In this document: positions 17,078 through 32,770 of the stretch, in pieces
Layout: every line of letters begins with the position of its first letter
Position numbering within the stretch: position 1 is the first letter of the stretch
Position numbers and translations under genes: made by a program
Assembly (NCBI RefSeq): GCF_016508255.1
Contig: NZ_JADVKT010000005.1
Coordinates: forward strand, 186,001 to 250,000
Reading direction: 5' to 3'
Length of the DNA stretch: 64,000 nt
From: Acinetobacter calcoaceticus
Lineage (GTDB): Bacteria; Pseudomonadota; Gammaproteobacteria; Pseudomonadales; Moraxellaceae
The notes under the pieces: generated by a model
Database searches by the model: none
Told to the model about the DNA's origin: nothing
What the model saw: only the letters and a program-made list of their open reading frames with translations

Positions 17078-17093
17078 GTGATTAAAGTCTCAT
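17078..17093 (+). promoter_or_regulatory. Upstream motif shared by both adhesin genes (copy 1)
   Basis: GTGATTAAAGTCTCAT matches GTGATTAACATCTCAT at 25961-25976 in 14 of 16 positions. The two lie about 160 and 120 bases before their respective starts, so they may be a common regulatory site or simply duplicated sequence. Confidence 0.45.
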
Positions 17094-17178
17094 ATTTTTT
17101 GATGGGTTCTTCGGTTTTATATTTACCCTTTAAATTTATTCATTTAGGATGCCGCCTCTTTTTTGGGACCTGAAAATT

Positions 17179-17204
17179 ATAAAAATGTATTTCTACATTT
17201 TTAT
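17179..17204 (+). promoter_or_regulatory. Perfect hairpin in the 5' untranslated region of the first adhesin
   Basis: ATAAAAATGTA and TACATTTTTAT form a perfect 11-bp stem with a TTTC loop, extended by GACC/GGTC flanks. It ends 35 bases before the ATG. It is too AT-rich and T-poor downstream to be a clear terminator. An RNA-stability or translation-control element is possible. Confidence 0.5.
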
Positions 17205-17239
17205 GGGTCTTTGATTTTGGTATTTGTCTGAGAAGTTTT

Positions 17240-20200
17240 ATGAATAAGGTTTATAAAGTCATTTGGAATGTTTCGATTGGAGCATGGGTTGCAACATCTG
17301 AAATTGCAAAAGGTAAAACCAAGACTAAATCAAAAACTTTAAATGCATCAGCGGTAGTTTTAGTAGGCGTAATTAGTTTTGCTCCAAATGCTTTCGCAGG
17401 GACAAATACCGAAGGAGGAGTAGGCCAAGGAACATCCATTTCAGGTACAACTTCATGTCGTGAAGGGAATGCGAGCACTGCCAATGAAAAAGATATTGCT
17501 ATTGGTTGTGGAGCCCAAACTCAAGACAGAACTGGCTCTAACATCGCAAACCGTAATAATCCATATAATAATTCTACTGGTGCTTATGCGGGTGCAATGA
17601 AACAAGGTGGGGCAATTAGTGTAGGTACTGGCGCCGTAGTTGAGAAAAGTTTAGGAACAGCAATTGGTTCTTATGCGACAACTCAAGGTATTTCAGGTGT
17701 TGCAATTGGTACAGGTGCTTTATCTTCTGGGAATACTGCTCTTGCCGTTGGACGCCAATCTGCAGCGACCGCCGATTTTTCCCAAGCAATTGGTAATGTT
17801 GCAGCCGCTACAGGTAAAGGTTCTTTAGCAATTGGGCATTCGGCGACTGCAGAAGGTTACCGTGCAATTGCGATTGGTTCGCCAGATATTGAAAATGCAG
17901 ATCCAGTTGCAGGCCAAGCAGGTGCTGCTTATCAACCTAAAATGGCAACAAAGGCAACTGGTAAAGACTCGATTGCATTTGGTGGCGGCGCAATTGCTAC
18001 TGAAGAAAATGCTTTAGCGATTGGGGCGTTCTCTGAGTCGAAAGGTAAAAAATCTGTTGCAATTGGTACAGGTGCAAAAGCTCAAAAAGATAATGCAGTT
18101 GTGATTGGGGACCAAGCTGAGGCTACTTTCGATGGTGGTGTCGCAATTGGTAAAGGTGCCCGTTCAGAGGCAGAAAATAGTATTGCTGTAGGTAAAGATT
18201 CAAAAGCAATTCAAGCTACGGGTGAAAGTTTCTTAACTAAACAATCAGCTCCAACTGGTGTTTTATCAATTGGTGATGTGGGAAGCGAGCGTCGTATTCA
18301 AAACGTTGCAGACGGTGCAGCAGATTCTGATGCCGCGACGATACGTCAGTTAAAAGCTGCTCGTACCCACTATGTCAGTATTAATGACAATGGTCAGCAA
18401 GGGGGTAACTTTGAAAATGATGGTGCGACTGGACATAATGCGATTGCTGTTGGGGTGAATACTTCTGCTACTGGTCGTGATGCGATGGCGATTGGTGGAT
18501 ATGCACAGGCGATGGGAGTTGGTGCAATTTCAATGGGAAGTAGCAGTCAAACGGTTGGCAGTGGTGATGTTGCTATTGGGCGTAATGCATCGACAAAAGG
18601 TGCGGCAGGAACACCGCCTGGCTATAGCAATCAGTCTATTGCGATTGGTGATCAGACGAAAGCAATTGGAGATCAGTCGATTGCGATTGGTGCCGACGTA
18701 ATTGCAAGAGGAAATTCTTCTGTTGCTATTGGTGGGGATGATGTAGATAAAATCGCCCAAGATGCCGAGTTGAGCAAAACCTATACAGAAATTACGGGTG
18801 GTGTACTTAAAGCAGGTAAGTATCCAACAACTGAAGCGAATCACGGCTCAACTGCTGTCGGTACTCAAGCAGTAGGTACTGGTGCATTTTCATCGGCTTT
18901 CGGTATGACTTCTAAAGCTACGGGTGATGCTTCATCTGCTTTTGGTGTCATGTCAAATGCTTCAGGTAAAGGTGCTGCTGCATTTGGTGCGGTTGCTCAA
19001 GCAACAGGTGATGGCGCATCGGCAATGGGTATTAACTCATTCGCATCGGGTACAAATTCAACAGCAATTGGCTCTGGCAACAAACCAGGTGAAGGAGCAA
19101 AAGCAACTGGAAACAGTGCTGCTGCAATTGGTAGTGGTGCCCAAGCAACAGGCGATAACTCTGCTGCAATTGGTAAAGGGGCTGAGGCTACAAACGAAAA
19201 TGCTGCTGCTGTAGGTGGCGGTGCAAAAGCAATTGGTAAAAATGCTGCAGCCATTGGTGGTGGTGCAATTGCTGACCAAGAAAATGCAGTTGCAATTGGT
19301 CAAGGTGCCCAATCATTAGTAGAAGGTGGTGTAGCTTTAGGCGCACGCAGTAAAGTAGAAGCTAAAAATAGTGTTGCTTTAGGTCAAGATGCTGTAGCGA
19401 CTGAAGCGACAGGAAATTCTTTCCTGACCAATCGTGATGCTTCTAAATCTAATGGTGTTATTTCTGTTGGATCGGCTGAAAAAGAACGTCGTATTACCAA
19501 TGTCGAAGATGGTTCGGCTGACTCGGATGCGGTAACAGTACGCCAGCTTAAAAATGTTGATGGACGTGTGAACCAAAACACGAGCAATATTAGTAAAAAT
19601 GCTCAGAATATTACCAATTTAAATCAAAAGTTAGATGATACAAAAACTGACTTGGGTAATCAGATTAGTGATACCAACACGAAGTTAAACAATACCAAAG
19701 ATCAGTTAACGACTCAGATTAATGACACTAAGTCTGAGTTAAACAACACGATTGGTAATACGAAAACTGAACTGAATAGCAAAATCGATAACACCAAGAC
19801 TGAGCTTGAAAACAAAGGTTTGAACTTTGCTGGCAACAGTGGTGCAGATGTACACCGTAAGCTTGGCGAGAAGCTCAACATTGTAGGTGGTGCGGATGCT
19901 TCAACACCAGCTGCGAAAACAAGCGGTGAAAATGTTATTACCCGCACCACTCAAGATGGTATCCAGATTGAACTGTTAAAAGATTCGAAGTTTGACAGTG
20001 TGACTACTGGCAACACGATTTTGAATAATAATGGTTTAACTATTAAAGAAGGTCCAAGCATTACCAAAGATGGCATTAATGCAGGCGGTAAACAAATTAC
20101 CAATGTGGCTGATGGTGTAAATGCTAAAGATGCAGTGAATGTTGATCAGTTAACCAAAGTAAAAGATAACTTGAATGGCAAAATTACTGATACGAATAAT

Positions 20201-31282: not shown

Positions 31283-32065
31283 ATGAATAAAACAATCCAA
31301 AGCTTAGTCGTAGCTGCTTTTGCTGGTTTTGTGGTAACAACTTATGCGAATGAACCTGCTCAGCAACAGGAGATCCATTTTCCTGCTATTGAAAAAAGTT
31401 ATTTGAAACAAGTAAAACGTTATGAATACCAAGATGTTGCTCGCTTAGATTTAGGGCTGAATAAAGACCAAATTCGAGCTTTATTAGGAAATCCTCAATT
31501 TAGTGAAGGGGTGTTTGCAGTAAAAGTTTGGAACTATGTATTAGATGTCCGTATTCCTAACACAAACCAATATAAACGCTGCCAGTTACGTATTGATTTT
31601 AATGGAAAATATTTGGCGAAACGTTTATCTTGGAAGGGTGAGGAGTGTGAAGGCTTAGCTGCTTTGGGTGAGAATAATCAGGCACCACCTGTACATAGTA
31701 ATGTCATTGCAGAGCGTACAGCGAGTGTATTATTTGCCTTTGATCGGTTTGATGCGAGCGCGATTCAAGAGGGTATTGATAGCGTTGCGAAAATTGCCGA
31801 GCAGATTAAGAAAACCGAGACAACGACTCCTGTAATTGTTTCAGGCTTTACAGATCCGTTAGGTAAATTTAGCTATAACCAGAAATTGTCTTCACAACGT
31901 GCCAATACAGTTGCTGAGTTATTGGTACAACAAGGCATTGAAGCAAATCGTATAAAAATAGAGGCAAATAGCCAAACCGATTTATATAAGCAGTGTAGCG
32001 GTAACAATAGTTCACAACTTATTCAGTGTTTAGCACCAAATAGACGTGTTAATATAACTTGGTAA
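31283..32065 (+). CDS. tpgA: TpgA-like periplasmic partner, second copy
   Basis: The 260-residue paralogue of the protein at 24698 has the same signal peptide, BamE/SmpA-like segment (RLDLGLNKDQIRALLGNPQF) and OmpA-type domain (VSGFTDPLGKFSYNQKLSSQRA...SNN-like tail). The first about 53 codons are almost identical at DNA level to copy 1. Further on the two diverge moderately, with scattered substitutions and one extra residue near 130 (APPVHSN against VPAHSN). It follows adhesin 2 by 60 bases. Both copies look intact, so each adhesin has its own partner, or they may be interchangeable because the anchors are identical. Confidence 0.9.
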   Translation: MNKTIQSLVVAAFAGFVVTTYANEPAQQQEIHFPAIEKSYLKQVKRYEYQDVARLDLGLNKDQIRALLGNPQFSEGVFAVKVWNYVLDVRIPNTNQYKRCQLRIDFNGKYLAKRLSWKGEECEGLAALGENNQAPPVHSNVIAERTASVLFAFDRFDASAIQEGIDSVAKIAEQIKKTETTTPVIVSGFTDPLGKFSYNQKLSSQRANTVAELLVQQGIEANRIKIEANSQTDLYKQCSGNNSSQLIQCLAPNRRVNITW

Positions 32066-32082
32066 AGCGGTCTGTCACGAAA

Positions 32083-32114
32083 AAGTAATCATCCCTAGGG
32101 TGGTTACTTTTTTC
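32083..32114 (+). terminator. Terminator after tpgA copy 2
   Basis: The same AGTAATCATCCCTAGGGTGG-type hairpin as after copy 1, followed by T6. Confidence 0.9.
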
Positions 32115-32185
32115 GTTTTAGGAGGTTAAAAAAGCAAGTAAGATGAATTTCAAATCAAACAGTTGTTTAAATTTTTATATAAAAA

Positions 32186-32770
32186 TCATCTTTTAAAATA
32201 ATAAAAGTTTTGTGGTGTCAGCAAGCCATCTAATGGTTGATCCCAACTTTGACGTTTTAAAGAATCTTTAATGAATTGAAACTGATGTGCTAATCCTAAA
32301 CGATAAGGCTTATGCTTAGCACTTGCCAATGTACGATCATAATAACCACCCCCCATGCCAATACGTGTCCCGTAGTGATCACAAGCTAAAAGTGGCATAA
32401 GCAGTAAATCAAGCTCTGACACATGTCTTCCTCGAGTTGCCATAGGTTCTTTCATTCCCAATGGATGATGAGAAAAACGACGATTTAAATATTGGTTCCT
32501 AGATATTTTTACCCAAACTAGTCGTTGATTCATAGAACAAATCATAGGTAAGTAAACTTGTTTATTTTTTTGAAAACATAACTTTATGAGAAGGTCTGTA
32601 TGAACTTCTCCAAAGGCATGTAAATATAAACCAATCTTTTTTGATGAATGAAAAATAGCAAGGCGATTAAGATGATGGAGAACATTAAGCTGAGCTTGTT
32701 TTTGCTCCAATGTGGTTAAAGAGCGTCTTTTAGATCTTAAATCTTTTCTAATAAAACTAAGTTCATTCAT
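32186..32770 (-). CDS. ygfA: 5-formyltetrahydrofolate cyclo-ligase (YgfA)
   Basis: The enzyme converts 5-formyl-THF to 5,10-methenyl-THF with ATP, rescuing a dead-end folate. The ATG at 32770 is preferred over an upstream TTG, although neither has a clear ribosome site. The 194-residue protein has the N-terminal RKDLRSKRRSL substrate-phosphate region, IGLYLHAFGEVHTDLL, and the C-terminal signature GTRIGMGGGYYDRTLA. In E. coli the order is zapA-ssrS-ygfA on one strand. Here the same order is kept on minus, with about 1.3 kb of extra genes between 6S RNA and ygfA. Confidence 0.92.
   Translation of the reverse strand: MNELSFIRKDLRSKRRSLTTLEQKQAQLNVLHHLNRLAIFHSSKKIGLYLHAFGEVHTDLLIKLCFQKNKQVYLPMICSMNQRLVWVKISRNQYLNRRFSHHPLGMKEPMATRGRHVSELDLLLMPLLACDHYGTRIGMGGGYYDRTLASAKHKPYRLGLAHQFQFIKDSLKRQSWDQPLDGLLTPQNFYYFKR

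Follow-up and report, generated by a model that had tools for sequence, protein, structure and literature searches.

The 64,000-nucleotide stretch of Acinetobacter calcoaceticus DNA analysed here in full (positions 186,001 to 250,000 of contig NZ_JADVKT010000005.1, hereafter the window) carries between lon and ygfA two genes for trimeric autotransporter adhesins (TAAs), each with its own tpgA gene, and a decayed copy of the ygfA end between the two units. The left flank is formed by lon (14023..16458, minus strand), which is of the type found in the calcoaceticus/dijkshoorniae/pittii (CDP) clade and was named from the annotated Lon protease in A. baumannii CP040048.1. The first unit, on the plus strand like the second, consists of adh1 (17240..24637; 2465 aa), a type A TAA orthologous to Ata, and tpgA1 (24698..25477), and the second of adh2 (26084..31222; 1712 aa), a TAA with a type B head, and tpgA2 (31283..32065), which the tpgA tree places in its A/B part without resolving it further. 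Pfam assigns an ESPR, a YadA head, a stalk and an anchor to both adhesins, with the C-terminal YadA-like anchor PF03895 above cutoff and PF05658, PF05662 and PF13018 covering head and stalk repeats and the extended signal peptide; by these sequence criteria both are predicted to be TAAs (type Vc). TpgA1 and TpgA2 each combine PF04355 (BamE-like) with PF00691 (OmpA-like), and each gene lies directly 3′ of its TAA gene. The two complete adhesin-tpgA units described in the initial annotation of this stretch are thus present and backed by Pfam, as is the intact ygfA behind the second one (32186..32764, minus strand), whose product has a 5-formyltetrahydrofolate cyclo-ligase domain and whose start codon is uncertain, the open reading frame extending to 32785. 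Further right lies the 6S RNA (34111..34294, minus strand).

Behind tpgA1, the final ~84 nt of ygfA recur in decayed form at 25587..25670 (minus strand). Aligning 25478-26083 with 32066-32770, as the initial annotation had suggested, gave a score of 141, compared to a mean of 27 and a maximum of 48 in 500 dinucleotide shuffles, and the ygfA-only part, 25572-25760 against ygfA, scored 44 over ~77 nt instead of the proposed 189 nt (shuffle maximum 34) and is thereby better than shuffled sequence. The alignment starts at the same TGA as ygfA, and a one-base gap disrupts the frame. The decayed 3′ end with a shared TGA is therefore real, while its proposed extent has to be reduced, as ~84 nt make up less than half of 25572-25760. 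A profile of the ygfA 3′ end, built from 18 intact 3′ ends with no remnant among them, detected the remnant in the window (E=2.2e-4), in A. nosocomialis NIPH 2119 (E=1.1e-6) and in G153, a further genome with two units at this site (E=8.9e-4), whereas the best of 1000 shuffled sequences reached E=1.5. When scanned over 637,663 bases, comprising the window and 29 of 164 loci, some of them overlapping, the profile returned 15 intact ygfA genes and these three remnants, all at the same junction and each beginning at or beside the stop codon; they were the sole non-intact matches above 4.5 bits, and nothing else in these bases was better than E=3.5. In pairwise alignment the NIPH 2119 remnant scored 63 (shuffle maximum 35) and the G153 remnant 37, a value equalled by 2 of 1000 shuffles. 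By profile, the remnant occurs in three of four junctions between type A and type B units and in none of the three B/C junctions; in the latter, as in three spacers between lon and the adhesin, no score exceeded −4 bits.

The lon-ygfA interval was compared across the genus by searching 175 genomes, of which 173 contain ygfA; the 17 with at least 85% identity were taken as the baumannii-calcoaceticus complex. Eight of these 17 have no unit at the site (G001 A. pittii, G003 A. lactucae, G029, G030, G031, G071, G077 and G144), three have one (G022, G075 and G076), two have two (G002 A. seifertii and G153), and two, both A. nosocomialis, reach at least three (G016, whose assembly has gaps, and G004, where lon lies beyond the stretch compared); in the remaining two the site is cut by a contig end and holds at least one unit (G056 and G097). 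Five A. baumannii records catalogued as plasmids likewise have one unit, a sixth such record being left out. Strains with a single unit, which the initial annotation had asked for, hence exist, and its view of the site as one where adhesin variants arise fits the range from zero to three units and the hybrids seen among the 17 complex genomes. All eight empty sites can be aligned across a common scar, at the end of which stand approximately the last 60 bases of tpgA plus the terminator, so that emptiness reflects loss. This is in line with the joint loss of ata and tpgA inferred for the CDP clade in the part of PMC6363060 consulted.

Several individual layouts deserve mention in their own right. 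A. seifertii NIPH 973 (L002, 10700-15749) carries two shortened units, the lon-side one having a tpgA with an in-frame stop and an A-type upstream region joined to a B-type tail. In A. baumannii NZ_CP104448.1 (L086, ~12439-13427), an insert of ~990 bp lies between lon and ata relative to L089. The A. baumannii records L086-L090 are seemingly whole or partial chromosomes filed as plasmids.

Outside the complex, the side of ygfA on which the genes lie is different. In six records (L005-L008, L012 and L014), tpgA and an adhesin anchor are found on the opposite side of ygfA, towards zapA, giving the order lon-ygfA-adhesin-tpgA; three of them (L005, L006 and L008) have an Ata-like N-terminus as judged by eye, and zapA and ygfB come next in 4 of 20 stretches 3′ of tpgA in outside genomes, the four in which they were found. 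These layouts would suit an ancient array of repeated blocks, each made of ygfA and a unit, from which different ygfA copies were lost, a scenario that would account for the remnant as well as for the change of side. We consider it rather unlikely, as seven lon-adhesin spacers contain no convincing ygfA trace, the 20 outside stretches 3′ of tpgA, some of them short, contain none either (best E=0.19), and nothing of the ygfA 5′ flank is present in the junctions.

The initial annotation had instead read the locus as one adhesin-tpgA-ygfA-end segment duplicated in tandem, with the passengers diverging later, and this interpretation is borne out in part. The ancestral order ata-tpgA-ygfA is kept in the five A. 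baumannii records and in G022, the ygfA tail was truly duplicated and then decayed, as seen both pairwise and by profile, and the anchor and tpgA ends of the two units are very similar. Divergence in place of two tandem copies is, in contrast, not supported by the adhesins themselves. The adh1 head shares 87–93% DNA identity with Ata in other genomes, and this lon-side gene is collinear with ata, most of 16459-25590 being matched by L089, with 87.4% DNA identity in the head. The adh2 head (26084-27900), by comparison, shares 95.7% identity with G153 and 83.8% with NIPH 2119, while against A. baumannii Ata it shows 32.7% protein identity, a synonymous divergence (dS) of 1.8 and a single DNA match of 71 bp; on these values it would not qualify as an ortholog of Ata. 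The heads thus belong to different types, each with orthologs elsewhere, which argues against a recent copy of one unit. A recent tandem duplication should moreover leave upstream region and head alike in both copies, and the upstream regions of adh1 and adh2 align barely better than shuffled sequence (score 43 against a shuffle mean of 35, with 16 of 300 shuffles as high).

The similarity of the ends is confined to a 394-bp block of anchor, spacer and tpgA start (24422..24815 and 31007..31400, plus strand) with only 2 mismatches between the units, each copy being 91% identical to unit A of G153, and such a localised tract would be better explained by gene conversion than by recent duplication. 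tpgA1 clusters with G153 unit A (100/100), whereas the second unit of G153 combines a B head with a tpgA that falls inside the C group of the tree, and units have therefore hybridised. Finally, the junction itself is common to two other genomes: the window is collinear with NIPH 2119 over 25478-29242, which takes in the tpgA1 terminator, the remnant and part of adh2 (3774 bp, 81.7%), and with G153 over 22257-29761 (7520 bp, 91.8%). The remnant junction consequently predates the window genome and marks an older event, the addition of unit B at the ygfA border. In sum, a tandem duplication with later divergence of the passengers appears improbable to us, although a much older one, preceding the divergence of types A and B, may still lie at the source of the units.

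The ancestry of the flanks differs from that of the cassette between them. We adopted the clade names CDP and NSB as used in the consulted part of PMC6363060, assigned genomes without a species name by lon, and compared markers fixed between the clades, taken on the left from four NSB genomes, on the right from six, and on both sides from seven CDP genomes. In the left flank 59 of 70 markers are CDP-like, 10 NSB-like and one neither, and the last 35, up to 16629, are all CDP-like. Within ygfA, all three markers in 32206-32414 are NSB-like, and from 32502 to 34023 CDP-like markers return (52 of 55), which puts the right crossover at 32414..32502. The same split is seen in synonymous divergence, based on ~50 synonymous sites in each part of ygfA: the 3′ part has a dS of 0.45–0.57 to five NSB genomes and of 0.80–0.94 to three CDP genomes, while the 5′ part has 0.18–0.29 to CDP and 0.83–1.81 to NSB. 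The flanks are accordingly A. pittii-like (CDP) and the cassette is A. nosocomialis/baumannii-like (NSB), reverting within ygfA. Inside the cassette, dS to G153 is 0.148 for the adh2 head, 0.279 for the adh1 head and 0.297 for tpgA1, each below that of all 32 flanking genes (0.312–1.818, median 0.79; 33 were checked in frame and one, being saturated, was left out). Ancestry thus changes at both ends and divergence inside is low, the pattern by which an allelic import is recognised, and these sequence comparisons suggest that the segment of ~16.64–32.45 kb was probably imported as a block by homologous recombination from an NSB-clade genome. The direction, from NSB into this lineage, rests on the split within ygfA. 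The apparent import of the array as a block also speaks against duplication in place in this lineage.

Vertical inheritance of the cassette, with this lineage having been spared the deletion found in A. pittii and its relatives, could draw on G075, G076 and G097, which retain a unit and show that the deletion is not universal outside NSB. Such descent would nevertheless not be expected to leave parts of the cassette less diverged from G153 than any of the 32 flanking genes, nor to join an NSB-like 3′ part to a CDP-like 5′ part of ygfA, and we regard it as very improbable.

A number of observations weigh against the import and the remnant as we read them. The 10 NSB-like markers of the left flank all lie among its first 35. 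The left edge (16630..16656) is blurred because CDP genomes carry a deletion there, and beyond 16629 the few informative sites are mixed (16638, 16640 and 16645 NSB-like, 16644 CDP-like), while the right end rests on only three fixed NSB markers. Taken over their full length, the adhesins have higher dS values to G153 (0.54 and 0.43), partly because the repeats lack a one-to-one alignment; tpgA2 is not low at all, with 0.67 to G153 unit A and 0.85 to the second tpgA of G153, and the ygfA 3′ part, at 0.56 to G153, lies above the values of the heads. As for the remnant, its score of 44 compares with a maximum of 42 in 300 plain shuffles of a 700-nt stretch, and once ~23 nt are trimmed from the start of the ygfA end it falls to chance level (25610-25780 scores 24, as does 25664-26000, each with a shuffle maximum of 35), so that the pairwise case alone is not overwhelming. 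One A/B junction, that of A. nosocomialis GNU001, has no detectable remnant (−2.7 bits). A chance similarity in an AT-rich spacer, to which these modest margins and one spurious 6.8-bit match of a full-length ygfA profile elsewhere might point, is nonetheless hardly credible, as the 3′-end profile yields, in the bases scanned, only three remnants, all syntenic and placed at or beside the stop codon. The 6.8-bit match lies 3′ of tpgA in A. ursingii (L014) and was discarded, since tblastn reached no better than E=0.27 there and met internal stops, and on reading the stretch appears to be permease coding sequence.

Taken together, we consider it quite probable that lon-ygfA is a recombining TAA-TpgA array site with a history of an Ata unit, addition of a B unit with a ygfA end, reshuffling, and import of the cassette from NSB into CDP. 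At the outset, an Ata unit stood directly before ygfA, as shown by the sequence and spacing of the remnant and by the one-unit genomes. A type B unit was then added at the ygfA border together with its own ygfA end; the event is visible in the sequence, and its simplest mechanism would be a recombination with one end anchored in ygfA and the other joined illegitimately within the tail of the old ygfA, which would have turned that tail into the remnant. Some genomic islands rebuild the 3′ terminus of the gene next to which they insert and leave a leftover end copy behind. The locus resembles such islands in the insertion beside a gene end, the gene kept intact and the leftover copy, but homologous recombination is the simpler reading. 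In homology-facilitated illegitimate recombination (PMC3240628, consulted in part), one homologous and one illegitimate end would, we infer, leave a duplicated flank tail of this kind. Later recombination between the near-repeated anchor-tpgA ends may have produced copy numbers from 0 to 3, hybrids and homogenised copies, the layouts being observed and the mechanism conjectural. Lastly, the A-remnant-B cassette would have moved whole via homology on the lon side and in ygfA from an NSB donor related to G153, a step that is well supported. More tentatively, and with less confidence than in this history, one may picture lon-ygfA as an exchange site of the entire complex, at which whole arrays are swapped between species via the housekeeping flanks, the near-identical anchor-tpgA ends serving as recombination handles for reshuffling heads and copy number, and the ygfA tails as fossils of expansion.

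The units also carry candidate regulatory elements, all on the plus strand and in agreement with the initial annotation. Hairpins lie between adh1 and tpgA1 (24644..24673) and between adh2 and tpgA2 (31229..31258), and terminator-like hairpins 3′ of tpgA1 (25488..25528) and tpgA2 (32077..32115); most or all shuffles fold less well than the hairpin of the tpgA1 spacer and the two terminators. All 19 adhesin-tpgA spacers examined, several of them near-identical, fold into a hairpin whose stem sequence varies by unit type (the two of the window and those of L002, L005-L008, L012, L014, L081, L082, L089, L123, L130, L135 and L139), and at most 8 of 100 plain shuffles fold as well. Possibly, this hairpin acts between the two cistrons to control the ratio of adhesin to TpgA. 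The upstream motif common to both units lies at 17077..17092 and 25960..25975 and resembles a CRP-type palindrome, matching 9 of 10 positions of the consensus in both cases (3 and 1 of 200 shuffles equal, respectively). Of 11 upstream regions, 10 contain such a palindrome, with 9 or 10 of 10 positions, 109–205 nt 5′ of the adhesin start; that of G075 matches 8 of 10, no better than shuffles.

A lon-ata-tpgA-cyclo-ligase locus with one unit, and its loss, has been published for A. baumannii (PMC6363060, as far as the consulted part goes). It shares the flanking genes, Ata and TpgA with the present locus, which differs by two units, the ygfA remnant, the scar sequence and the mosaic import; the words copies, paralog, horizontal and recombination are absent from the main text of that paper. 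The AtaA-TpgA pair of Acinetobacter sp. Tol 5 is likewise a TAA with a dedicated TpgA. Among phage records, four matched TpgA, all below 60% identity. While the single-unit locus is hence already known, neither a multi-unit array nor a ygfA remnant nor an import was evident for this locus in the literature searched, as judged by titles and the beginnings of abstracts. By analogy with published Ata and AtaA biology, each unit would provide one surface fibre with its own TpgA, and the cassette would therefore alter the adhesin repertoire. The presence and absence of Ata in the pathogen-containing complex has so far been read as inheritance plus loss (PMC6363060, same part). As the remnant, the scar and the mosaic edges indicate, expansion, hybrid formation and transfer between species also take place at this locus, and the adhesin repertoire of a strain can therefore not be read from the species tree.

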